Source of the DNA: Haladaptatus cibarius D43
Lineage (GTDB): Archaea; Halobacteriota; Halobacteria; Halobacteriales; Haladaptataceae
Direction: 5' to 3'
Assembly (NCBI RefSeq): GCF_000710615.1
Contig: NZ_JDTH01000002.1
Location: 1,232,082 to 1,296,081, forward strand
DNA length: 64,000 nucleotides
Made by a program: the position numbers and the translations under genes. Of this stretch, positions 41,681-60,431 are shown piece after piece; position 1 is the stretch's first letter, and every line of letters begins with the position of its first letter. The notes beneath the pieces are model-generated. The model was not told the DNA's origin and ran no database searches. It worked only from the letters and a program-made list of their open reading frames with translations.

Positions 41681-42145
41681 ATGTCCGACCTCAATTCACT
41701 CGATCACGAAAAATACGTCCAACGTGCAATCGCGCTCGCCCGCGAAGCAGGCGAGCGCGGGGACGGCCCGTATGGCTCGATTCTCGTCCGAAACGGCGAA
41801 ATCATCATGGAAGAGACGAACCGCGAGAACACTGACGACGACCTCGCGCTCCATCCGGAACTCACGCTGGCGCGCAAGGCGGCACGAGAACTGTCGCCCG
41901 ACGTTCGCAAAGAAACGGTGATGTACACCAGTACGGAACCGTGTCCGATGTGCGCGGGCGGAATCGCCATCGCTTCCCTCGGAGCAGTCGTCTACAGTGT
42001 CTCGGGCAAGCGCGCCGCCGAGGAGTTCGGCGGCGCGCCCGGCGTTCCGTGTGACGAGATTTTCGAGCGAAGAGCATGTGACATCGACGTGGTCGGTGAC
42101 ATCCTCGAAGACGACGGACTCGCGCTTCACCGCGAATTCAGGTAA
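41681..42145 (+). CDS. Nucleoside deaminase (CDA superfamily)
   Basis: A 154-residue zinc deaminase of the guanine/cytosine/tRNA-adenosine deaminase group. The zinc site is formed by the His in LHPELTLARK (HPE instead of the commoner HAE) and the pair in STEPCPMCAGGIA. The Glu of HPE is the proton shuttle. The length and the C-terminal helix fit guanine- or cytosine-deaminase-like members acting on free bases or nucleosides. The substrate is not determined. A perfect hairpin follows the stop. Confidence 0.88.
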   Translation: MSDLNSLDHEKYVQRAIALAREAGERGDGPYGSILVRNGEIIMEETNRENTDDDLALHPELTLARKAARELSPDVRKETVMYTSTEPCPMCAGGIAIASLGAVVYSVSGKRAAEEFGGAPGVPCDEIFERRACDIDVVGDILEDDGLALHREFR

Positions 42146-42152
42146 AATCGCG

Positions 42153-42187
42153 TGCGAAACCGGAAACTGCCGGTTTCCGGTTTCGCA
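42153..42187. terminator. Perfect 15-bp inverted repeat
   Basis: Positions 42153-42167 (TGCGAAACCGGAAAC) are the exact reverse complement of 42173-42187; the loop is TGCCG. It begins seven bases after the deaminase stop and lies about 90 bases before the next gene on the same strand. A terminator or RNA-stability hairpin is likely. A repetitive extragenic palindrome is possible. Confidence 0.5.
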
Positions 42188-42274
42188 TTCGCGTTTGACG
42201 ACCCGCTTTTCCGGAGCTCTTCCTCGATTTTCCAACACCTTGCGCTTATCCCCCGTGAGTTCGTAAATTCGACC

Positions 42275-42736
42275 ATGACGAGGCCAGACGACCCCAGCGC
42301 TGCCGAAGTCGCCGACGACCTCGACGATCCGGTTCTCCTCTTCGACGGCGTCTGCAACTTCTGTAACGCAGCCGTCCGATTTGTCGTTCGGTTCGATGAA
42401 TCCGGAACCTTCCGCTTCGCGCCACTTCAGTCCGACATCGGGCAAGAACTCCTCTCCCGATTCGACCTTCCGACCGACGATTTCGACTCGTTCGTTCTCG
42501 TTGAGGGTGACGACTACTACACTCGCTCCACCGCGGTTCTGCGAGTCTGTCGCCGACTGGACGGCCCGTGGCCACTTTTTCATCCGCTCATCTATCTTCC
42601 CGAACGACTGCGCGACCCGGCGTATACTTTTCTCGCGGAACATCGCTATCGGTTGTTTGGCAAGAAAGACGAATGTCCGATTCCCGAACCCGAAATCCGC
42701 GAACGGTTCGCAGAGCGCGCGCTCGATACGTCGTAG
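42275..42736 (+). CDS. DCC family thiol-disulfide oxidoreductase (DUF393)
   Basis: A 153-residue protein with the family's DxxCxxC motif, LLFDGVCNFCNAAVRF near residues 22-37, then FAPLQSD and YTRSTAVLRV segments. It is proposed to be a thioredoxin-like oxidoreductase, but the partner is unknown. ATG 42275 is chosen because the preceding sequence includes the hairpin at 42153 and is not protein-like. The length is typical. Confidence 0.9.
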   Translation: MTRPDDPSAAEVADDLDDPVLLFDGVCNFCNAAVRFVVRFDESGTFRFAPLQSDIGQELLSRFDLPTDDFDSFVLVEGDDYYTRSTAVLRVCRRLDGPWPLFHPLIYLPERLRDPAYTFLAEHRYRLFGKKDECPIPEPEIRERFAERALDTS

Positions 42737-43499
42737 CCGCCTCATTTCGGTAAGGGTTCGTCTATAACACGTTTCTCACTTTGGGTATCAATGATGCACT
42801 GCGGCCATTTTGCGACGGAAGCGCCAGCAGGGAGTTCTGACGTGGAGTCAATCCAGAAACCGCCTCGTGAAGTGTGTTCGGCGAAGAAAAGTACACGGCT
42901 GCAGTGCTAGATGGATTCGCGGATCCGTACTGATCGAGCGCTATCGAGCCTAACTGTCCGCGACACTCCGAAAAAAGATGCTAAATACGGCCGCTATTTT
43001 GCCATACTAAAAACAGATATTTGAAAACGGTGTGGTTAGAGGACGACCCACTGAAGATAGGAGTGGAAACGACACTGGCACCAGAGTTGCCCGTATCGAA
43101 TTGGTACTCATCGAGAGTACTGTCTTCGAAATCGTCGACGATCGTCCCGAAAGGTCGTCCCCGCAGCCGCGGGCAAGGTGAAACGGCCAGCATAGACGAT
43201 TTCGCGTTCGATTATCGGGAGTCTCTTCCTCACGAGCTTATTCTACATGACGGCTGCCGTTGTACTTTCCTCACGATGATTATCGTGAGGGCGTCTCGAC
43301 CGACTTATTCTGAATAAAGCCGGTGAGGTAAAGTTATACTGCAGATATATTAATATAAAGTTCAAAAAATAGTACTAAGTGGAGTTCGAAAGACTCGGAA
43401 CGTATCGGCCCTCCTGCGAGTGACGACCACACCATCGTGGCAGCTCCGATTGCTCCATCGGAGGAAGCAACGCGACGCACGCATACGTATAATACACAT
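42737..43499. other. Gene-poor region with a probable gene relic
   Basis: No intact gene is visible. On the minus strand at about 43139-43020 a short frame reads VDDFEDSTLDEYQFDTGNSG, like the opening of carbohydrate-binding modules in halophile surface proteins, without a gene around it. A 9-bp hairpin (CCTCACGAT/ATCGTGAGG) lies at 43269-43290. From about 43310 the DNA becomes A+T-rich (TATATTAATATAAAG), probably the promoter region of the following surface-protein gene. Confidence 0.5.
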
Positions 43500-45290
43500 A
43501 TGTCAGATAAAAATCAGTCAGAAAATAAGCATCGACGCGAAACCGACACCGACGCTTCCGCTCACGCGAGCGACACGAATCGTCTCCTCGACCGGCGCGA
43601 CTACCTCAAGTTGACGGGAACGACCGCCGCTGCCGCCGCTGCTGGTTTCGGTGGGGCTGGGACTGCTGCTGCCGAGAGCTACGATACCGTGACGGTTGGG
43701 AAAAACGAAACGAAAAAATACAATCTCGGTGATAATGATACTCTCGAAAACATCCTTTTCGACATCACCGCTCCTGGTGCCCGAGTGAAAATTCGCCCTG
43801 TCGGGAGTGGTTGGGTCGTTCGCAACATCGGGTTCAAGGGCCGTTTGGATCTCAACAGTTCCGGACCGAAATGGTACATGATTGGACCGGAAGTGTCCAA
43901 GGGTGGCACCGGCCTCATCGAAAACGTCTATCTCGGTGACGGAGCCACGAACGATGGTGGAACCGGCATCTTTGTCCCCCTCAACCACGCCGGGACGCTA
44001 ACCATTCGGCGGTGTTATTTCCAACACTGGGCGGACAACGGTGTCTACGGCAGCGCCCCGGGCCGCGACCCGCGCAACCCCGGCTACGGCACCGTCCAAA
44101 TCGAGCAGTGTTACGCGCGCAACAACAACCTCTCGAACTTTCGGGTTGGCACCGACGGCTCGTACGTGCGTGATTCGGTGATTCACGTCGATGACGACGT
44201 CCCCTATGCGTACGGCGATCCCGGCGCGGTGAATTCGAGGGGAATCTGGGCGAAAGAAGGCGGAAACATCACGGTTGACAACTGCGATATTCTGCTCGAG
44301 CACCCAGACGGCAGCGCCTGCGTCTGGGAGGGCGATAACGACCGAACGGGTCTTGCAAAAGTACGCAACTCTCAGATCGACGCGCGGGGGAGCAGTGTCC
44401 AACGGTTCACCGGAAATGTCGATGTTGGTCCGAACGTCGGTCAAAACCCCGACGTAGGGGTGCCAGCTGGCGTTCCCCAAAGCGCCAAACAGGCAGCACA
44501 AGGCAGTGGTGGCAGCCATTTGCTTGAAATAACCGGGAGTGGGACGCATACTGACTACAGCTTCACGGTGGACAGCAATCTCAAGGGAGCTGGAAGTCTC
44601 GAAAACACCGACAATATCGTCAATAACAATCAGAGTGCGTCGGGCGCGGTCGGTGGCGGCACCGACGCATACACGTTCGACGGAAACCTCCGCGCGTTCA
44701 ACTTCAACGGCGGTCAGGTGAATGTCCTCCTTGACGGGAAACCAGCGCACGTCGGCCAGCGTCCCGACCACTTCCTCCAGATCGAAGGGCAAGGAACTCC
44801 CACCCCCTACAGCTTCAACGTGAGCAACAACCTCGAAGGGGCCGGGAACCTCCAAGACAACGACAATATCGTCAACCATGGTTGGAGCGCGTCGGGTGAA
44901 GTTGGCGGCGGTACCGACTCTTACACGTTTGACGGCGACCTTGTCTCGTTCGATTTCGACGGGGAAGTGAACGTCCTGCTCGACGGCCAGCCGGCTCAGG
45001 TCGGTCAGCGTCCCGACCATCTCCTGCAAATAGAAGGGACAGGAAACTCCGTCGACTACGACTTCACGGTGAGTAGCAACCTCGAGAAAACCACGGCAGG
45101 AGGTGGCTCGATCAATTCGTCGGACAACATCACCAATCAGGGGCAGAGCGCATCCGGAGGAGTCAGCGGCGGCACCGACGCCTACACGTTCGACGGCGAC
45201 CTCCGCGCGTTCGATTTCAATGGCGGCGAAATAAACGTGCTGCTCGACGGCGGACCAGCGCACGTCGGCCAACTTCCTGACAAGGTCTGA
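43500..45290 (+). CDS. Tat-exported beta-helix surface protein with three C-terminal repeats
   Basis: A 596-residue exported protein. After a polar N-region comes a Tat signal (DRRDYLKLTGTTAAAAAAGF, ending near AAAES). Residues 60-335 are a right-handed parallel beta-helix (NIGFKGRLD, IENVYLGDG, IRRCYFQHW and VRDSVIHVDDD turns), as in pectate-lyase-like surface proteins. The C-terminal 255 residues are three tandem copies of an 83-90-residue beta unit (LLEITGSG then YSFTV, SASGAV, TDAYTFDG, NVLLDG). Homologous units end the next gene. Catalytic residues are not evident. ATG 43500 is used because the upstream codons do not look like protein. Confidence 0.8.
   Translation: MSDKNQSENKHRRETDTDASAHASDTNRLLDRRDYLKLTGTTAAAAAAGFGGAGTAAAESYDTVTVGKNETKKYNLGDNDTLENILFDITAPGARVKIRPVGSGWVVRNIGFKGRLDLNSSGPKWYMIGPEVSKGGTGLIENVYLGDGATNDGGTGIFVPLNHAGTLTIRRCYFQHWADNGVYGSAPGRDPRNPGYGTVQIEQCYARNNNLSNFRVGTDGSYVRDSVIHVDDDVPYAYGDPGAVNSRGIWAKEGGNITVDNCDILLEHPDGSACVWEGDNDRTGLAKVRNSQIDARGSSVQRFTGNVDVGPNVGQNPDVGVPAGVPQSAKQAAQGSGGSHLLEITGSGTHTDYSFTVDSNLKGAGSLENTDNIVNNNQSASGAVGGGTDAYTFDGNLRAFNFNGGQVNVLLDGKPAHVGQRPDHFLQIEGQGTPTPYSFNVSNNLEGAGNLQDNDNIVNHGWSASGEVGGGTDSYTFDGDLVSFDFDGEVNVLLDGQPAQVGQRPDHLLQIEGTGNSVDYDFTVSSNLEKTTAGGGSINSSDNITNQGQSASGGVSGGTDAYTFDGDLRAFDFNGGEINVLLDGGPAHVGQLPDKV
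44517..45287 (+). repeat. Three tandem coding repeats (about 250 bases each)
   Basis: The copies begin at 44517, 44769 and 45018 and encode units of 84, 83 and 90 residues, each opening with HxLxIxGxG and ending VGQRPD or VGQLPD. Nucleotide identity is high in the TACACGTTCGACGG and CACGTCGGCCAGCGTCCC segments. Two further copies lie at 46633-47145. Confidence 0.85.
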
Positions 45291-45387
45291 GAGGGTGATA
45301 CATAGAGTATCTCCATCTCTTTCGGCCATCAAGGACTAATTCACGCCAACAGAAATTAATATTTTAATAAAATACTAAATAATAAAA

Positions 45388-47148
45388 ATGAACTCAAATA
45401 ACGACAAACAGGCTCCGGAAATGCAGCGACGCAGGTATCTCGCCGCTATTGGTGGCGGGCTAACGATCGGACCCGTTAATCGACTAACTGGCGACGACAC
45501 TACAAGGAGCAGTATCGGCACTGATAGAGAAGACGGTAATGGCGGTGACATGGAAAGCCAGAGCAGCGGGCGCTGGGAACAGTTGGCGGATATGCCGACC
45601 GGGGTCTCAGCCACGGGTCGCACGGGAGCAGTTCTCAACGGAAAAATGTATAGCTTCGGTGGAATCCTCACCGACGTCAACAAGCCGGAGAGTCAGGACC
45701 GAGAGCAAGTCGACACCGTATGGATCTTCGACCCGTCCGCCAGCGAGAGCGGTTCGTGGAAGAAAGGGTCGCCGATGCCACAGAAGCTTGCAGGCGCTGC
45801 CGCGGCCGCCGCGAAAGGGAAGATATACCTCTTCGGTGGTGCCAAACCCGGTGGCGGGCCGTGGAACGGGCAAGATACACTCGCCAACAAGATTTACCGG
45901 TTCGATCCAAACGGCTCGCCAGAATGGAAGGATGTAACGCCGCCAGATGGTCTTCCTCAGGGTGGACTGTACGCAGCGTCAGCGGTGTATAGCCAGCAAA
46001 CCGACCGTATTTACGTCGTGGCGGGTGGAATGGGCGATCCAAAACCGCCAAACTCGCAACGAATCTGGACGTTCAAGCCCGAAGAAAACGAAATCGCAAA
46101 TCCGAACTGGGCGACGCTGCCCGCAGATCTGGCGGCGCGATGGGGGTCTGCCGCCATTCTTTCGACGGGTGGAAGCAAATACTTGCACGCATTCGGTGGT
46201 ATCCATTACTCACCCGGCGGCACCCTCGAAAAACACGTTCGGTACGAACTTTCAGTCGGTGAATCGTCGGAAGAGGTCATGTCGCCGCTTCCACATTCCG
46301 GTGGAAAACTGGCGTCAGCAGTGATCAACGACAGACTCTACGTGACTCTCGGTCTCTATGATGAATCCGGTGACTGGTCTATAAGCGACTTCAAAAATCA
46401 CATGATGATGTACACCCCCGCTCTAGACTCGTGGAGCACGGATCTGCCGGAGATTAGTGAAGGCCGCGTCCGTGACCCCGGCGCAACAGGTGTTATCGAT
46501 GGCAGCATGTACATTGCCGGCGGTCATCTGAAGGAATACGAAGGCGATAGTAGAGACTTCCCCAACGCGCCAGCAGGCGACCATATCGTAAAACCGTGGA
46601 CTGATGGCTTTCACGCCGGTCGCCGCCCCGACAACGTGCTTGAGATAACCGGAAGTGGGACACGCACCGACTACAGCTTCACGGTAGACAGCAATCTCAC
46701 CGGGGCTGGAAGCTTCGACAGTGGCCAAGACGAGATCGTCAATCAGGGTCAAAGTGCGTCGGGGACAGTCGTCAGTGGAACCGACGCCTACACGTTCGAC
46801 GGTGACCTCCGCGCGTTCACCTTCGATGGTGGAGGAATAAACGTCCTGCTCAACGGGCAGCCGGCACACGTCGGCCAGCGTCCCGACCACTTACTTGAGA
46901 TAAACGGAACTGGAACGTACACTACCTACAGCTTCACGGTGGACAACAATCTTGAGGGGGCTGGAACCCTCGATAGTGGTCAGGATGAAATCACCAATCA
47001 CAACCAGAGTGCGTCGGGGGCAGTTAGCGGTGGAACGGATGCGTACACGTTCGATGGCGACCTCCTCGCGTTCGACTTCGACGGGAAAGTGAACGTGCTG
47101 CTTGATGGTGAGTCAGCGCATGTCGGGCAACTTCCCGACCACGTCTGA
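45388..47148 (+). CDS. Kelch-repeat surface protein with two C-terminal repeats
   Basis: A 586-residue protein with a short N-terminal RRRYLAAIGGG Tat-like signal. Residues 55-400 are a Kelch-type beta-propeller (GRTGAVLNGKMYSFGG, AAAAKGKIYLFGG, VYVVAGG-like and GSMYIAGG blades), as in galactose-oxidase-like or sugar-binding proteins. The last 170 residues are two copies of the repeat also found at the end of the preceding gene. This implies shared sorting, adhesion or S-layer attachment. It starts 97 bases after that gene; the gap is A+T-rich and may contain its own promoter. Confidence 0.8.
   Translation: MNSNNDKQAPEMQRRRYLAAIGGGLTIGPVNRLTGDDTTRSSIGTDREDGNGGDMESQSSGRWEQLADMPTGVSATGRTGAVLNGKMYSFGGILTDVNKPESQDREQVDTVWIFDPSASESGSWKKGSPMPQKLAGAAAAAAKGKIYLFGGAKPGGGPWNGQDTLANKIYRFDPNGSPEWKDVTPPDGLPQGGLYAASAVYSQQTDRIYVVAGGMGDPKPPNSQRIWTFKPEENEIANPNWATLPADLAARWGSAAILSTGGSKYLHAFGGIHYSPGGTLEKHVRYELSVGESSEEVMSPLPHSGGKLASAVINDRLYVTLGLYDESGDWSISDFKNHMMMYTPALDSWSTDLPEISEGRVRDPGATGVIDGSMYIAGGHLKEYEGDSRDFPNAPAGDHIVKPWTDGFHAGRRPDNVLEITGSGTRTDYSFTVDSNLTGAGSFDSGQDEIVNQGQSASGTVVSGTDAYTFDGDLRAFTFDGGGINVLLNGQPAHVGQRPDHLLEINGTGTYTTYSFTVDNNLEGAGTLDSGQDEITNHNQSASGAVSGGTDAYTFDGDLLAFDFDGKVNVLLDGESAHVGQLPDHV
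46633..47145 (+). repeat. Two tandem coding repeats, homologous to those at 44517-45287
   Basis: The copies start at 46633 and 46888 and encode 85 and 86 residues with the same key segments (LEITGSG, SFTVDSNL, TDAYTFDGDL, NVLL, AHVGQ). The similarity to the first gene's 3' end continues for about 48 bases past both stop codons without gaps (for example GGYCATCRAGGA), so a segment including downstream DNA seems to have been duplicated. Confidence 0.8.
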
Positions 47149-47979
47149 AAAGGAGGCATGTCGAATAATCTCGCCGCTGTTGGTCATCGAGGATAGACGT
47201 ACGACGGCAAATATTTTTGCAGAACCCGACGTGAGGTTGGTCGTAACCTATGGATAGCTCATTTCCGTGTTCACCTCGAAATAGACAACTCGGTCAATGA
47301 TGTTTTCGCCAGTACGCAGTGAGTGTGTAGGCTGGCGTGATTGGTGTGGTCACGGCAGTGTTTATGCTTGTGTTGCCAGCCTTTCAGAATCGTGAGGATG
47401 ACAAAGTAAACACAGAAACCGACCGAGTCGCTCGGCACAGACTAACCAGATACCTCGACGCCCACTTCCGAGTGCGAGTATCGCGGTCGTGGCAATACCA
47501 CTGCTGTCGGTCAGAAACCATATACTCAGACCATCCACAGTGACGGGACGCCAGAGAAACCTCCAGAGCCCCGCGATTTGAGGCTCGGGAAGATGTCATT
47601 CATTCGGCTGTGGAATCCATACCACTATTATATTCCTCTGTTTAGATGAGATTATAATGTGTGAGAGTTGGATAGTGAACCAAGCGGTATTTCAGTTATT
47701 GGAGATTTCAAACATCGCTATTCGAATTGGCGCTAGCAGACATTCATTCACTGCTAGTGCATGCGCACACGATGGGGATGAACAGTCATTGTCTAGTGTG
47801 AATGAAGGAATTGTTAGCAGTGAGGCACCGGTTGTCGATACTACCATCTCTAAACTGGTGATGGAGAGTCAAGACCAACCGTTGCAATCACATAGGGTAC
47901 CTCAGATCAGCCCCTCGTCAACGACGCGTTGTGATGGTATTCTGAGAGATGTCCACCACTGGGTACGAACGAAATAGAT
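47149..47979. other. Gene-poor region before the HTH-STAND-TPR gene
   Basis: No confident gene. A short plus-strand frame near 47331-47543 begins with a single hydrophobic helix (IGVVTAVFMLVLPAF) and loses protein-like character, perhaps a membrane-gene relic. Another frame, 47657-47977, ends just before the next start but has no recognisable features. The first 50 bases belong to the duplicated flank of the repeat genes. A+T content rises towards 47640 (TATTATATTCC), where a promoter may lie. Confidence 0.5.
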
Positions 47980-50900
47980 ATGTCTGACGATTCAACAGCG
48001 GAGGAACTATTTGAATTTCTAGCGCAGCGCCGCGCCTTTATAAAATGTATAGTAGAAAATGATGGGCCGACCAGCAAACAAACGCTCATTGAAGAGACGG
48101 GGACTTCTCAGCCGACGGTAGATAAAGCGCGAAAAGAGCTAGATAGATGGAATTTGATTGAGGAAGAATCCGGCGTCATTACTTCGACGCTTTTCGCAAG
48201 ATTGGTCTGGGAAGCATATCACACACTACAGCAACATATTGCGACAATCATACCACCTGACAGCGAGAGTCCACTGTGGCCGACGGAAGCAGACCAACGA
48301 GAGGTAATGAGGCTGGTTGCCAATCGACTCGAAGTCATCGAAAGCGTAGAGCCTAAACCACGGGAAAAACGCGATATTGTTGATTGTCTAGATGTGTCAT
48401 CATCGACGGTGAATCGAGCAATTCGTAATCTTGAATCGCTTGGACTTGTCAGTAGGGAATCGTCGGGATACACTATTACATCGAGTGGACAGCAGGCTAT
48501 AGATCAATACCGATTCACGATTAAGACAATCAAGGACATCCTCAAGGTACAAACTGTGCTACAGACACTCCCAGCGACCAGCCAAATTCAGCCGTCGGCA
48601 CTAGTTGATTCTGAAGTAGAGAAGACTGCTAATGCTCCACCGTATCACTTCCCTACAGGGTTGCGGGAACGGATTGAAAACGCCACGCACACACGCTTAC
48701 TTCTGCCTGTCCTCGCTTCTCCCCAGTTACTCGATTGCTGTCTCCAAGAAATCGCGCAGGCCGATATGGCGCTCGAACTGCTCACTACTTCGGCATTATT
48801 TGACACACTCACAACGGATTTTCCTGGCCCACTTGCAACGATGGCGACTATCGGGCGCGACTCCTTCACTGCGTCTGTGATTGAAGCGACATCGACGACT
48901 GTTCCGACATTCGGACTAGTACTCACTGAGACAGATACAGCGACTGCTGCCTCGATCATTGTGTACAGCAATCAAGATACAATTCAGGGTGTCATCCACG
49001 CTAGCAACGATGCTGCAATCAATTGGGCGACGAAACAGTACGCACGTGCTCGTAATAACGTAACTGATGTGACCGACGACTTGCGTGATTTGGCGCCTGA
49101 TGGAGCGGCTTTATCGAGTGGTAGGATGTCAACGGTGGGTGATCAGAGCCGCGTTGCGCGGGAAGCAGAGGGGTTTGTTCAGTTATCACCGGACTATTTC
49201 ACCCAGCGAACACCGTCCTCTCCGGCCACTGCAGTACGTTCGGGCATCGATTTGGTTGATGTTCACGCCGGGTATGCCATTGATCGTGAGGGAAAACGTG
49301 ATGAGTCTCGGTATAACTTCACCTCTGATATTATCAAGAATATTCGTACAAATACCAATCAGGTGGTCATTGGTCCACCTGGCTCGGGAAAGAGTACGGT
49401 CTGTAAAGCGGTTGCTTGTCAGTGGTATGAGCAGGGCATTGGCCCTGTGTTTTATCGTTCTGACAGTACCGGGACAATGTTTAATACACCAGCTGAAATT
49501 CGTGAGCAGTTGCGTGAGTCTGTTACTGACGGGCACGTACTCGTGGTTGTTGAGGAGGCAGTTCGGCCAGAGGCGAATGCGATCTTTCGTGTGATGAAAT
49601 CGTTCAGGGGAAATAGTAACATAACATTTTTGCTCGATTCACGGACTAAAGAGTGGAAAGGCTCCGTCACATCACCAACTGATGCGAAACTTGAGGCCTA
49701 TCGCAAGGAAGCTATCGAAGAGGTACCCGTTCCCGGTCTTGACAAAACGGAACGCGGTCGGTTTATTCAGCAGATCGAACAAATCACTAATCACACTTTC
49801 AGTAGGGCAATCTCTCGCCAGTTCCGTGAAAATCCGAATAAAAAAGAGAATACGGATACCCCGTCAGATAGTCGAAAGCAATCATCGACAGCTGCCGAAC
49901 CCAGCGATCTACTCGTGTTCTTACATCGACTAGTAATGCATGTCGACCCACTTGCAGTGTATGAGTCAGCAACGCCGACAACACTGGTTGAGGACGTCCA
50001 GCGTACATACGAAGATCTTCAATCAAGAGGGGATCTTGCTCTCAACGTCGGTCTCGTAGTAAATATGCTAAATACAGCCGGTATTGGAGTTTTTCCGACA
50101 CTTGTTTGCGCGCTAGCAGGGGGCGAGGATGAGTCTGAAATCGAGACAGTGCGGGAGATACTCTCATCGCTTGAGGGGCGTCTCGTCTTCACAAATAAAA
50201 ATAATCTCACATCTGAAGATGCACCGTATCGAGCAGTTCATGAAGCTTGGTCAGCACTCTTTCTCAACCATTTCATATCGACTACGACCAATCATGCAGC
50301 GAGCAAACGAATTGGCCACTGTATCACGGCACTTCTTCGGCTTGCAGATTCGGAAACACTGCGCAATCGAATTATGGAAGCGTTTCTGGGTGACACACCG
50401 GTGATAGAGGGTATTGCAGCTGCACCTAGGGAATGGGCTGATAATACGGTTGAGCAACTCTTCCAGTTCGGAATGCGACGACCAAGTCTTTCTCCATTGT
50501 ATGGACAGACTAAAAATACGTTCATAAAATTGCCAAAAGTTTGTTCGTTGAAAACAACCGTCAACTGTACTCTTTGGCGAGCGGGAATCGCACGACAGAC
50601 AGGAAAATGGGACAGAGCAGAGGAAGAGTACGAAGCTTTATCGACATTTGTGTCAGAAGTTGAGACACAAGACACTGAATGGGCCGCAACACTACGCGGG
50701 CAACAGTGCCAAGGGCTTGGAATCGTTGCATGGTATCGAGGCGAGTTTAATTCTGCAAAGGCCTACTATGTACGCGCACTCAATCATTATTCTGAAGACG
50801 AAGATAAACGTCGATGTGCCCAAACACGAATGAATCTCGGACTAGTTTCGATGGCTCGTGGCGATATGGAATTGGCCGAGGACGCTCTTACTCGAAGTTA

Positions 50901-51759
50901 CGATCTCCATCAGGAGTTGAAGGATACACAGGGCGCTGCCCTATCATTATCCAATCTCGCAGGAATTACAGTAGTAACTGAAGGAGTAACGCCAGCCATC
51001 GACCAGTACCGCCGAGCGTTAGACCTCACGGACGAAGCCAACGATACTCAAATGAGGAGTAACTGTCTACAAGGACTAGGACGTGCTCTCGCAATGCAGG
51101 GAGACCTCGATGCAGCGACGTCCTATTGTATGCAAGCGCTTGAACTCTGCCGTGAAATGGGCATTCGCGACATCGAAGCGTATAGCCTCGCTCAACTAGG
51201 GTTAATCAATCGACTTCGTGGAAACTTTAGTACAGCCGAGGATTATCACAAAAAGTCTCTCGCTATTCGCCAAGAAATTAGTGACCAAAGAGGTGAAGCA
51301 GGAAGCCTCGCCTCACTGGGGCTGCTTGCGTGCAAGAATGGTGCTTTGGACACCGCTGAAAAACGGTGTCTGAAGAGTATCAATATCTGTCAGGACATCG
51401 GTGATCACGTTGTCGAAGCAAAGTCCCTCGCTACACTCGGGTTAGTGGCCCGCAATCAAGGTACACTCCAAACTGCTGAAAAGCATCTCTATGAGAGTCT
51501 CTCGAAGTATGAAGACGCTGGCCACAGGCTGGGCAAAGCCACGGTTCAACGCCGGCTTGGAAGTGTTGCCTGCGATGGTGAACAATACCGCTCTGCAGAA
51601 ACTAACTACATGGGGGCAGTACGTGATTTCTACGCCTTGGGGTGCCGTATCGAGGTGAAACGAACAATAAACGGTCTTCGATTAATGGAGTATAGAGAAA
51701 GTAACTCGGAGAAAGGAGCGAAACGACTTGAAGAGGCCATGAAATTATATCGGCACTAA
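47980..51759 (+). CDS. HTH-HTH-FilR1-P-loop (STAND-like)-TPR protein
   Basis: A 1259-residue multidomain protein. Residues 8-75 and 105-170 are winged-helix DNA-binding domains (QPTVDKARKELDRWNLI and SSTVNRAIRNLESLGLV recognition helices). Residues 225-375 match the FilR1 middle domain of haloarchaeal regulators (TRLLLPVLASPQLL, PTFGLVL, AINWATKQYAR). A P-loop NTPase follows with Walker A GPPGSGKST (about 465-473) and Walker B HVLVVVEEA (about 518-526), then a helical region. Residues 870-1235 are about nine TPR units (NLGLVSMARGDMELAEDAL, AQLGLINRLRGNFSTAEDY). No transmembrane segment. Probably a STAND-type signal-responsive regulator. Codon use is more A+T-rich than elsewhere, suggesting transfer. 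Confidence 0.82.
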   Translation: MSDDSTAEELFEFLAQRRAFIKCIVENDGPTSKQTLIEETGTSQPTVDKARKELDRWNLIEEESGVITSTLFARLVWEAYHTLQQHIATIIPPDSESPLWPTEADQREVMRLVANRLEVIESVEPKPREKRDIVDCLDVSSSTVNRAIRNLESLGLVSRESSGYTITSSGQQAIDQYRFTIKTIKDILKVQTVLQTLPATSQIQPSALVDSEVEKTANAPPYHFPTGLRERIENATHTRLLLPVLASPQLLDCCLQEIAQADMALELLTTSALFDTLTTDFPGPLATMATIGRDSFTASVIEATSTTVPTFGLVLTETDTATAASIIVYSNQDTIQGVIHASNDAAINWATKQYARARNNVTDVTDDLRDLAPDGAALSSGRMSTVGDQSRVAREAEGFVQLSPDYFTQRTPSSPATAVRSGIDLVDVHAGYAIDREGKRDESRYNFTSDIIKNIRTNTNQVVIGPPGSGKSTVCKAVACQWYEQGIGPVFYRSDSTGTMFNTPAEIREQLRESVTDGHVLVVVEEAVRPEANAIFRVMKSFRGNSNITFLLDSRTKEWKGSVTSPTDAKLEAYRKEAIEEVPVPGLDKTERGRFIQQIEQITNHTFSRAISRQFRENPNKKENTDTPSDSRKQSSTAAEPSDLLVFLHRLVMHVDPLAVYESATPTTLVEDVQRTYEDLQSRGDLALNVGLVVNMLNTAGIGVFPTLVCALAGGEDESEIETVREILSSLEGRLVFTNKNNLTSEDAPYRAVHEAWSALFLNHFISTTTNHAASKRIGHCITALLRLADSETLRNRIMEAFLGDTPVIEGIAAAPREWADNTVEQLFQFGMRRPSLSPLYGQTKNTFIKLPKVCSLKTTVNCTLWRAGIARQTGKWDRAEEEYEALSTFVSEVETQDTEWAATLRGQQCQGLGIVAWYRGEFNSAKAYYVRALNHYSEDEDKRRCAQTRMNLGLVSMARGDMELAEDALTRSYDLHQELKDTQGAALSLSNLAGITVVTEGVTPAIDQYRRALDLTDEANDTQMRSNCLQGLGRALAMQGDLDAATSYCMQALELCREMGIRDIEAYSLAQLGLINRLRGNFSTAEDYHKKSLAIRQEISDQRGEAGSLASLGLLACKNGALDTAEKRCLKSINICQDIGDHVVEAKSLATLGLVARNQGTLQTAEKHLYESLSKYEDAGHRLGKATVQRRLGSVACDGEQYRSAETNYMGAVRDFYALGCRIEVKRTINGLRLMEYRESNSEKGAKRLEEAMKLYRH

Positions 51760-51890
51760 CTCCACTGCCAGCAGTGGAAACACCCGAAGTATATCCAGTT
51801 CTTCCTGCCGGGAATCCTCATGCAGCTAATCGTCTTCATCACCGACTACATGGGAGTCAGACTGAACTCGGATATCGACAACCGGTACCA
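51760..51890 (+). pseudogene. Possible membrane-protein gene relic
   Basis: Directly after the previous stop, an open frame without an upstream start codon reads WKHPKYIQFFLPGILMQLIV then FITDYMGVRL. This looks like one membrane helix of a real protein. The FFLPGIL part recalls ABC-2 permeases, but I am not sure. It runs into the 3' end of the convergent gene at 51892. It may equally be chance. Confidence 0.25.
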
Positions 51891-51891
51891 T

Positions 51892-53094
51892 CTACAACTG
51901 TCGAACCAACTCGGGCATTTTTCCCACGTCCTTCAGCCGAAACGGGTACAGTTTCGCTAATTCGAACAAGCTGAGGTCGTATCGTCGCAGTCGTTCCGCC
52001 TTGGTCGTAGAGAGGTTCCCAACTCGCTTTACGAACGAATCCTGCTGACTTCCGCTGAAATCGTAGAGCAGGTCGCTCAGGAGTCGTTGAAGTCGCCACT
52101 TTCTGCCTCTCGTTTCGTTCCATCGGCGTTCGTACGTCCGTAATCGTTCGGCGGAAACGTCGTCTGCTGACAGCGCGTTTCGGGCAACGGTGGCGGCCAT
52201 CTTCGCCGAGGCCAGTCCCGGTCGAATGCCTTCGCCAAACAGGGGATTGATGCTAGACGCGGCATCCCCGATAGCCATGAAACCGTCGGTGGCCCGTTGG
52301 TTTGTCGAATCGTTCCAGACGCCCTCGCCCGCGTGTTTCGCCCTGATTTCCTCGACGTGCCAGCGCGGGTCGTCGTATACCCATCGCTCGGCGTACTCGT
52401 GAATCGAATCCCCCGTTTTGCGGGTAGCGTGGTATTCGTCCACCCAGCAGACGCCCGCCTTGCACACGTCTTCGCCCGCCGGAAACGTCCACGCGTAGCC
52501 CCCCGGCGCGAGTTGATGGTCGAATGCGAACAACATCGTGTCGTCGGTTTCGTACTCCCCCTCGATTTCGTATTCGAGGCCGATTCCGCGCCGTGCGGCG
52601 TCCGTATCGAAAAATCCCAACTCGGACGTGATGATTGCACTCGGCCCACTCGCATCGACAGTTATCCTTCCGCGGAGTTCACCGTCACCGTCGGAATTTC
52701 GGTACCGGACGCCGCGAATCGCTCCACCTTCGGCAATCGGTTCCGTGACGGTCGTTCCGGTGTAGATGTCGGCCCCGCGGGATTTTGCGTCGGCTCCCAA
52801 AAATTCCAGTAAGCCGGGAAAATCGAGGACGTAGCCCCCGATGTCGAAGCGACTGCACTCGGTCGGCCCTTCGAAGGTGATAGTGTCGGGTTCGCCCATG
52901 ATGACTTCGTGGGGAATGTCGTACTCATCGATGACTTCCTCGAACGTCCCGCCCGTGGATTTGTCGTTGTCGCGGAGGTCGCCGTTTCGTTCCAGAACGG
53001 CGACCGAGAAGCTCGAATCGGAAACGATTTCGCGCGCAAATTGGAGTCCCGCTGGCCCCCCGCCGACGACGATACAATCGTAATCGCACTGCAT
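51892..53094 (-). CDS. Geranylgeranyl reductase family FAD-dependent oxidoreductase
   Basis: A 400-residue flavoprotein. It has an N-terminal dinucleotide fold (CIVVGGGPAGLQFAREI), the middle VDASGPSA motif and the second FAD motif GDAASSINPLFGEGI. Relatives saturate isoprenoid chains of archaeal lipids or menaquinone; other members act on halogenated or hydroxylated substrates. ATG 53092-53094 begins MQCDYDCIVVGGG; the frame upstream is Arg/Ser-rich and not protein-like. The substrate cannot be read directly. Confidence 0.88.
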   Translation of the reverse strand: MQCDYDCIVVGGGPAGLQFAREIVSDSSFSVAVLERNGDLRDNDKSTGGTFEEVIDEYDIPHEVIMGEPDTITFEGPTECSRFDIGGYVLDFPGLLEFLGADAKSRGADIYTGTTVTEPIAEGGAIRGVRYRNSDGDGELRGRITVDASGPSAIITSELGFFDTDAARRGIGLEYEIEGEYETDDTMLFAFDHQLAPGGYAWTFPAGEDVCKAGVCWVDEYHATRKTGDSIHEYAERWVYDDPRWHVEEIRAKHAGEGVWNDSTNQRATDGFMAIGDAASSINPLFGEGIRPGLASAKMAATVARNALSADDVSAERLRTYERRWNETRGRKWRLQRLLSDLLYDFSGSQQDSFVKRVGNLSTTKAERLRRYDLSLFELAKLYPFRLKDVGKMPELVRQL

Positions 53095-58825: not shown

Positions 58826-60070
58826 TTAGATGCCCGATAACAGTGTAGAGACGTTACTGAAGTCGAAACAGTAGTTTCGTCCCTTGTAGCTGAAACAGAA
58901 CCGACCCGACGGACTAGACGCCGAAATCCGTTGCTCGTCCACCGAATCGTCCGCCGAGGGTGCGGTTTCCGCGGCGTTGCCGGAGTCGGAACCGGTAGAG
59001 GAGTTGCCCGAATTTCCACCGTTTCCGGAACTGCCGGAGTTCCCACTGTTTCCGGAACCGCCGGAGTTACCGCCGTTTCCCGAATTTCCGCCATTTGCCG
59101 CCGACCCGCTCGCGGCCTGTTCGGCGGTCGTGGGCACGCCTTTCGGCGGTTCGTGCGATGGGTTCTCGCCGACGTTCGTCGTCTCGACGTTGCCGATGAG
59201 TTGGCCCTTAATCTGCGAATCCGTGACGCGGAACGTCGTCTTCGTAGCAGCCAGCGCGGATGCTCCGCCGTTCGTGTTCGCGTCCGTGCAGTCGATGTGG
59301 CAGTTCTCGAACTCGATGACATTGCTCGTCGTCCCGTAGCCGTCGTACACGCCGCGGGAGTTCACGACGCCGCCGTTGATGGGGTGAACCGGAACGTCCT
59401 CCGTGTTGTAGATAACCGTGTTTTTGACGGTCGTCCCGTCGTTTGCGATGCGGAGGTGGCTGATGTTGTTGTTCTTCAGGAGACAGCGGTCGAACGCGAG
59501 CGTCCCGTTGCCGCCGCCGGAGTTAGCCGACCCGGCCGCGTAAATCGCGTTGCCCGTCCAGCCGTTCATCGTGACTTCGTTCAGGTCGATGTGGCCCGAA
59601 TGGGAACTGGAGACGCCGATTGCGCCCTTTCGAACCATGTCGCCGGAAACGCCGTCGCCGAGGTAGACGTGTTCGATGGTGCCGGTTCCGGAGGCGGCGA
59701 TGAGGTTCGGATGGCCACCCAAATTCTCACCGGGCGAGTGCGGGCCGCTCATGTCCGCGGCACCTTTGAACCCGACGTTGCGAATCGTCCAGCCGGAACC
59801 GCTCGCCACGATTCGGGCGTCGGCTTTGTCGGCGCTGATGTCGATGAGTTTGTTCTCGAACGTTTCGCCGCTTCCGACTTGGAACTGCTTTTGGCTTCCC
59901 GCCGGAACGGTGATGGTTTCGTACTCCGCCGCCGCTGCCCCGTTCGAAAGTAACCCCGCTCCCGCAACCGTGAGCGCGGTCGAACCGGTCAGCTTCAGAT
60001 ACGAGCGTCTATTCAGTGAACTGTCTGAGATTTCTCTCTCGCGTACCGTCGTACTGCAATCGCGTGCCAT
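58826..60070 (-). CDS. Tat-exported beta-helix protein with Gly/Asn/Ser-rich linker
   Basis: A 414-residue exported protein and paralogue of the one at 43500. It has a Tat signal (NRRSYLKLTGSTALTVAGAG, cleaved near AAAAE), then SGWTIRNVGFKGAAD and IEHVYLGDGVSG, both shared with the paralogue, and a right-handed beta-helix to about residue 320. Instead of the tandem repeats it carries a low-complexity linker of Gly, Asn and Ser (about 325-370), then a short C-terminal module with two Cys (RFCFSYKGRNYCFDF). Start is ATG 60068-60070. The role is unknown, probably glycan binding or surface structure. Confidence 0.8.
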   Translation of the reverse strand: MARDCSTTVREREISDSSLNRRSYLKLTGSTALTVAGAGLLSNGAAAAEYETITVPAGSQKQFQVGSGETFENKLIDISADKADARIVASGSGWTIRNVGFKGAADMSGPHSPGENLGGHPNLIAASGTGTIEHVYLGDGVSGDMVRKGAIGVSSSHSGHIDLNEVTMNGWTGNAIYAAGSANSGGGNGTLAFDRCLLKNNNISHLRIANDGTTVKNTVIYNTEDVPVHPINGGVVNSRGVYDGYGTTSNVIEFENCHIDCTDANTNGGASALAATKTTFRVTDSQIKGQLIGNVETTNVGENPSHEPPKGVPTTAEQAASGSAANGGNSGNGGNSGGSGNSGNSGSSGNGGNSGNSSTGSDSGNAAETAPSADDSVDEQRISASSPSGRFCFSYKGRNYCFDFSNVSTLLSGI

Positions 60071-60431
60071 GCAGGCTTCAATGCAAAGCCATCTTTTAAT
60101 ATTCTTGCGGTATGCATCCCATTCTCTCAAATCCACAAGGGGATTGTGTGAAACGGTGTCTCGCTCCTCGTTGTATCGTTCGAATCGGTGTTAGAACCGA
60201 TGATTCCGAAAAATAAGTTAGTAATCGAACTATTTTGAGGCGGTAATCGAACGAGTTTTCGTAGAAATCGAATCGGTTGGCGGTGATTACGCTACGGTAC
60301 GTGAATCATAACAAAGCCTGAACGACGGTTTGATACACCTATCGTGAGTCAGAGAAGGAACCAAGGACGCGAGCAGAGGGTACGCTGTAAACACTCTTTT
60401 TCGCCGATAAACCGAGACACGGTGTTCAGCC
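60071..60431. other. Divergent intergenic region
   Basis: No credible gene. The stretch is moderately A+T-rich and contains TTTTAATATTC near 60089-60100 and AAATAAGTTAGTAATCG near 60208-60230, which could be promoter elements of the minus-strand beta-helix gene. The plus-strand flippase promoter may lie near 60395. Confidence 0.5.

Follow-up and report, generated by a model that had tools for sequence, protein, structure and literature searches.

Haladaptatus cibarius D43 encodes a large protein that probably works as a transcription regulator under the control of a STAND-type switch, in the manner of AfsR or MalT. Its gene lies in the window, which is the whole stretch of 64,000 nucleotides that was analysed, and forms one open frame of 1,259 aa with an ATG start and no internal stop. 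Pfam matches, with the main families above curated cut-offs, and structure models show, from the N-terminus on, two winged helices, then a FilR1_middle domain and a P-loop NTPase, and at the C-terminus ten TPR-like helix pairs (Table 1). The closest homologues align nearly full-length at 40-51% identity. A preliminary description of this DNA had read DNA-binding, FilR1, NTPase and TPR parts as fused in one polypeptide, and the single frame, the Pfam matches and the models bear this out. Its count of about nine TPRs was close to the ten helix pairs of the models.

Table 1. Positions of the features in the window, with the evidence for each.
Feature	Position	Strand	Basis
HTH-HTH-FilR1-STAND-TPR protein, 1,259 aa	47980..51759	+	single ORF; Pfam; closest homologues
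First winged helix, residues 1-100	47980..48279	+	second HVO_A0261_N stretch; helices and wing in model
Second winged helix, residues 105-190	48292..48549	+	PF25213, E 2.9e-20; conserved residues
FilR1_middle domain, about residues 201-369, TrmB-like / PLD-like fold	48580..49086	+	PF08350; VIA-align
P-loop NTPase domain, residues 391-605	49150..49794	+	PF25199; invariant motifs; Avs5 best structural match
Lid/winged-helix and arm, residues 640-869	49897..50586	+	model; conservation; Avs5 alignment
TPR superhelix, ten helix pairs, residues 857-1259	50548..51756	+	TPR_12, TPR_MalT; model
9.1 kb insertion	42764..51882		missing from three genomes of the genus
Candidate operator, perfect 9-4-9 palindrome CCTCACGAT-GATT-ATCGTGAGG	43269..43290		upstream of beta-helix gene; post hoc
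Tat-type right-handed beta-helix protein	43437..45290	+	weak PF13229 match below cut-off; Tat motif RRDYLK
Kelch-repeat protein, Tat-like N-terminus	45388..47148	+	Kelch families over cut-off; RRRYLA motif
Half-site ATCGTGAGGA	47389..47398	+	upstream of STAND gene; post hoc

The protein was modelled in two overlapping parts, residues 1-885 (mean pLDDT 87.3, pTM 0.56) and residues 380-1259 (mean pLDDT 87.8, pTM 0.83); at a pTM of 0.56 the relative placing of the domains in the N-terminal model is poorly determined. The models show winged helices at about residues 2-69 and 103-166 and an alpha/beta domain at 205-369, then an NTPase-lid-WHD(-arm) module and the helix pairs at about 857-1258. Foldseek matches of these models were re-assessed with VIA-align.

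The Pfam family HVO_A0261_N matches the N-terminus in two stretches, the better of which covers residues 108-184. Most homologues have one winged helix, and the first winged helix is restricted to a six-member subclade and a few others. The recognition region of the second winged helix (HTH2) has the conserved pattern S-S/R-S-T-V-x-R-A, in which 48 homologues keep S140, S142, T143, V144, R146 and A147 without exception or nearly so, and the winged-helix recognition residues rank among the most conserved N-terminal positions of this set. The conservation of the recognition residues suggests putative sequence-specific DNA binding. FilR1_middle matches residues 221-359 (E 1.4e-13), and structure prediction agrees with the FilR1 reading, as this region folds as a TrmB-like domain. 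Taken alone, it aligns with FAM83B (Z 14.6, rmsd 3.2, 148 residues), which we take to have a PLD-like fold. HTH2 and FilR1 together match TrmBL2 (Z 14.1) and TrmB (Z 13.7), where the high rmsd of 14-19 means that the likeness is domain by domain and not in the relative placing. A PF25213 winged helix is thus followed by a PF08350 domain, both over cut-off, which is the layout of a FilR1/HVO_A0261-type regulator.

The NTPase domain matches nSTAND_NTPase5 at residues 457-562 (E 1.3e-11, 44.9 bits against a cut-off of 34). The Walker A and B motifs, earlier called clear, are invariant or nearly so in the 48 homologues: in Walker A (G465-T473), G465, G468, G470, K471, S472 and T473 are invariant, and in Walker B (521-526) E525 is invariant, while the D526 column and R555 are nearly so. 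The arm/lid region has a nearly invariant H754 and an invariant W757. EfAvs5 is the best structural match of the NTPase-to-arm region (Z 17.5, rmsd 5.6, 375 residues), and the alignment covers residues 389-877; it is followed by an AVAST5 filament (Z 14.8), archaeal AAA+ proteins (14.2 and 13.8) and many AAA+ proteins at 13-14. PDB sequence searches with NTPase profiles gave matches of P-loop size only, so the relation to STAND proteins is based on fold comparison and Pfam. The hhGRExE and GxP motifs are signatures in the classical STAND definition; neither stands out in the conserved columns, and they may be missing from divergent STAND families. A literature search on the hhGRExE/GxP motif returned nothing. 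The models, the Avs5 alignment and the TPRs show the organisation of a STAND protein, namely an NTPase, a lid/winged-helix and arm, and then superstructure-forming repeats.

The C-terminal superhelix matches TPR_12 (E 1.5e-29) and also TPR_MalT. MalT domain III is among its top structural matches (Z 31.2, 356 residues), Rap/NprR proteins match at Z of about 22-30, and further TPR proteins also match. Since repeats easily reach high scores, the MalT match backs the type of superhelix and not a common function. Pfam, the conserved motifs, the models and the fold comparison together support the STAND reading and the MalT-like logic proposed at the outset.

Comparison with described proteins places the architecture between several of them. 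Like MalT of Escherichia coli, the protein combines a STAND ATPase regulator with a TPR sensor. MalT has its NTPase first and binds DNA by a C-terminal LuxR-type domain, whereas the haloarchaeal protein has its DNA-binding domains at the N-terminus and ends in TPRs. It has a winged helix and then a TrmB-like effector domain in common with TrmB, TrmBL2 and stand-alone FilR1-type regulators, which are without the NTPase and TPRs; the other FilR1_middle proteins of the same genome are about 260-340 aa long. FilR1 of Methanosaeta harundinacea likewise has a wHTH and a PF08350 domain (wHTH-DUF1724-REC; PMC5847659), and unlike the haloarchaeal protein it ends in a receiver domain and is a member of a two-component system. 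The closest precedent for the order is AfsR of Streptomyces, a large SARP regulator with the DNA-binding domain first, the STAND NOD in the centre and the TPRs at the C-terminus, in which the NOD and TPR domains inhibit transcription activation and ATP binding releases it (PMC10936776). The preliminary description knew of no system with this order, and in view of AfsR that claim is not supported. In contrast to the haloarchaeal protein with its archaeal winged helix and TrmB-like FilR1 domain, AfsR has an OmpR-type DNA-binding domain and a BTA domain, and the sequence likeness is limited to the TPRs (59.5 bits with the AfsR model against a cut-off of 1430). Avs5 (AVAST type 5) shares the NTPase and arm fold, Walker A, the acidic Walker B and the conserved arginine, the residues that are required for immunity in Avs5 (PMC12931631). 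The effector of Avs5, on the other hand, is Sir2 and its family match is nSTAND3, whereas the haloarchaeal protein has a DNA-binding regulator as its putative output and matches nSTAND_NTPase5; a Sir2 domain is absent from the domain matches of the 1,259-aa protein. As their defining domains are missing, the haloarchaeal protein belongs to none of the AfsR, MalT and Avs5 families. By analogy, the haloarchaeal family appears to follow the logic of AfsR with an engine whose fold is nearest to Avs5 and an output module related to FilR1. The architecture is new in parts and not in logic, the AfsR order being already known. A literature search found no description of an HTH-FilR1-STAND-TPR fusion, though one may exist elsewhere.

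The reading as a STAND-switch regulator follows from the domain order, the invariant motifs, the fold matches to Avs5, TrmB and MalT, and the conserved recognition residues; AfsR, with the same order, inhibition by NOD/TPR and release by ATP binding (PMC10936776), argues for a switch. We infer that the protein binds an inducer, forms oligomers and binds DNA, and likewise in which direction it regulates. In the proposed mechanism, the TPR superhelix would bind an inducer, which may be a protein, a peptide or a small molecule, and the empty superhelix would help to keep the NTPase closed with ADP. Inducer binding would open the protein, and ADP would be exchanged for ATP. The ATP-bound NTPase modules would then assemble and gather the N-terminal winged-helix/FilR1 units, which would bind DNA and alter transcription. 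The FilR1 domain, with its TrmB effector-like fold, may offer a dimerisation surface and possibly a second ligand input.

The genomic setting bears on what such a switch may control. The gene is part of an insertion whose flanks are contiguous in three genomes of the genus (L230, L231 and L232), where the matching stretches lie 30-70 bp apart, and no direct repeat of 10 bp or more flanks its edges. The A+T-rich codons noted earlier are real: the frame has a GC of 0.49 and a GC3 of 0.44, compared to a GC3 of 0.62-0.81 in seven nearby genes (0.62-0.67 in the other two island genes, 0.67-0.81 in the flanking genes). A mobile or horizontal origin, as first proposed, is supported by the lack of the insertion in three relatives, and its direction, gain here versus loss in the three, is inferred from composition. 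The gene was also described as lying alone, which is not the case, since genes for a Tat-type beta-helix protein and a kelch protein, both exported, share the same 9.1 kb. These two proteins have a common C-terminal module (64-71% identical), which seems to have spread from one exported protein to a neighbouring one. The conserved part of the window holds a further beta-helix-like protein at 58826-60133, a paralogue that is 36% identical to the protein of 43437-45290 and has no Pfam match at E 0.01. No RNA family was found in 42000-52500 and no tRNA gene within the window.

With such genes beside it, the protein may, in a narrower form of the switch reading that we put forward tentatively, be a MalT-like, cluster-situated activator of the linked beta-helix and kelch exported proteins that senses their substrate or product. 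A copy of the beta-helix gene (L073), 59-65% identical, adjoins the closest STAND homologue in another Haladaptatus genome at a locus that is non-syntenic with the window; however, this copy is apparently frameshifted, and the pairing occurs at these two loci only. Upstream of the beta-helix gene lies the candidate operator, which is the sole exact copy of its palindrome in the genome, and the half-site upstream of the regulator has 2 matches in the window versus 0.22 expected, counted post hoc. Upstream of their genes, the two beta-helix loci have no more than short matches in common (best E 0.025), and a sigma-70 promoter scan is uninformative for archaea. Genes with a Tat-like signal are over-represented beside HTH-FilR1 members, at 22/152 immediate neighbours versus 24/415 control-position genes of the same genomes (odds ratio 2.76, p 0.0015, test devised post hoc). 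After related neighbours are collapsed, the excess is modest and likewise post hoc (17/147 versus 24/415, p 0.026). Another comparison set, six loci around another gene together with the window, gave 15/126 with many syntenic copies. Beside members with a different N-terminus no clear excess is seen (3/43). Against an activator of this kind, no neighbour is conserved family-wide: a universally conserved neighbour was not found in 60 loci, and recurring ones, such as a copper-ATPase-like protein, come from sets of related genomes. The Tat-neighbour excess, the palindrome and the half-site are leads to possible regulation, and the neighbouring exported-protein genes are named most tentatively as candidate targets.

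The protein is no one-off fusion and belongs to a widespread, previously unnamed haloarchaeal family. Of 392 sampled genomes of the order, 75, spread over 32 of 95 genera, have a homologue at E 1e-30 or better. Among 295 sampled genomes of the phylum, the core profile matches 10 at E 1e-15, all of the same order, and no homologue was found in the about 240 sampled genomes from other orders. An alignment-based scan of GTDB contigs gave 74 loci, haloarchaeal by title except for a short partial match in a Polyangia bacterium; a single-sequence scan of genome contigs gave no relative. Within Haladaptatus, two of nine genomes have a full-length homologue, and the two are 51% identical. Plasmid homologues are annotated merely as 'tetratricopeptide repeat protein' or 'hypothetical protein'. 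The homologues keep the NTPase motifs and their neighbours vary, which is unlike an ordinary operon regulator.

The N-terminus differs among the homologues. HTH-FilR1 is present in 95 of 123 distinct core homologues, and a protein kinase takes its place in L083 and L155 (Pkinase E 9.8e-29 and 4.7e-26). These two (L083:7025-11008 and L155:4906-9267) carry HLDLKP and DWG motifs on the NTPase-TPR chassis and thus have the form of a kinase-output STAND protein. Most of the remaining homologues have helical-looking N-terminal domains, five of which were scanned without a Pfam match. A helical-looking N-terminus of about 200 aa marks a clade with L120, L125, L132, L172, L182, L190, L191, L216, L225 and others. 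A truncated NTPase-core relative with a helical-looking N-terminus is found in the same genome on an 84 kb contig (G000:C8; L229:7090-8457, minus strand). In a tree of 119 NTPase cores, which has a weak root, HTH-FilR1 occupies 94 rows and changes rarely. The two kinase members (support 98) are nested in a 28-row group (support 96) whose other rows are HTH-FilR1, and 22 of the 23 helical or other members cluster together, subject to the weak root. The kinase swap among HTH-FilR1 members and the separate helical clade mark the N-terminal module as exchangeable and as a putative output, and a nested kinase clade is expected if the N-terminus of the switch is its output. Among HTH-FilR1 members, the mean pairwise identity is 0.45 in the NTPase, 0.41 in the pre-P-loop region, 0.38 in HTH2, 0.37 in the lid/WHD and 0.35 in the arm, and, a linker apart, it reaches its lowest values of 0.26 in FilR1 and in the first HTH and 0.28 in the TPRs. 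Of the folded parts, the putative input domains thus rank with the most variable. Such variation would fit diversifying inputs and does not in itself point to defence.

It is conceivable, though doubtful, that the family is a haloarchaeal radiation of NLR-like receptors, with an Avs5-like NTPase-TPR chassis and interchangeable outputs (transcription regulator, kinase or helical adaptor), in which the HTH-FilR1 branch, on recognising a cue that is foreign or extracellular, directly changes transcription. An antiviral Avs5-like STAND sensor, whose TPRs would recognise a viral protein and whose opened transcription factor would start a defence or dormancy programme, is improbable. With its Avs5-like NTPase the protein may possibly have a defence role; Avs5 is the best structural match of this module, the distribution within the genus is patchy, the island is missing from relatives, and the TPR sensor is less conserved than the NTPase. 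Metabolic regulators, however, would show sensor divergence equally, the island genes are exported proteins and not nucleases or toxins, and no homologue was found in phage records. The defence function earlier drawn from the context also fails to emerge from the neighbours. PADLOC models were run on 118 immediate neighbours and 120 control genes and matched 60 and 135 families, respectively; the commonest families have similar counts in both, and one restriction gene yields many of the control families. PADLOC families are thus no commoner beside the family than in controls, and nothing in the context speaks for a defence role. The protein might also be a helical-repeat scaffold that uses ATP binding to control its contacts with other proteins, with winged helices that have lost DNA binding. 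This reading would suit the relatives with a kinase or helical domain in place of HTH-FilR1 and is very improbable, as the HTH2 recognition region is strongly conserved in HTH-FilR1 members, which is unexpected for a relic.

STAND switches that directly control transcription are known mainly from bacteria, as in MalT, GutR and AfsR. If the switch reading is true, this haloarchaeal family would show STAND switch logic acting on the archaeal transcription machinery. Moreover, the natural output swap to a protein kinase, together with the Avs5-like NTPase, would make the family tractable for work on what receptors of this kind sense.
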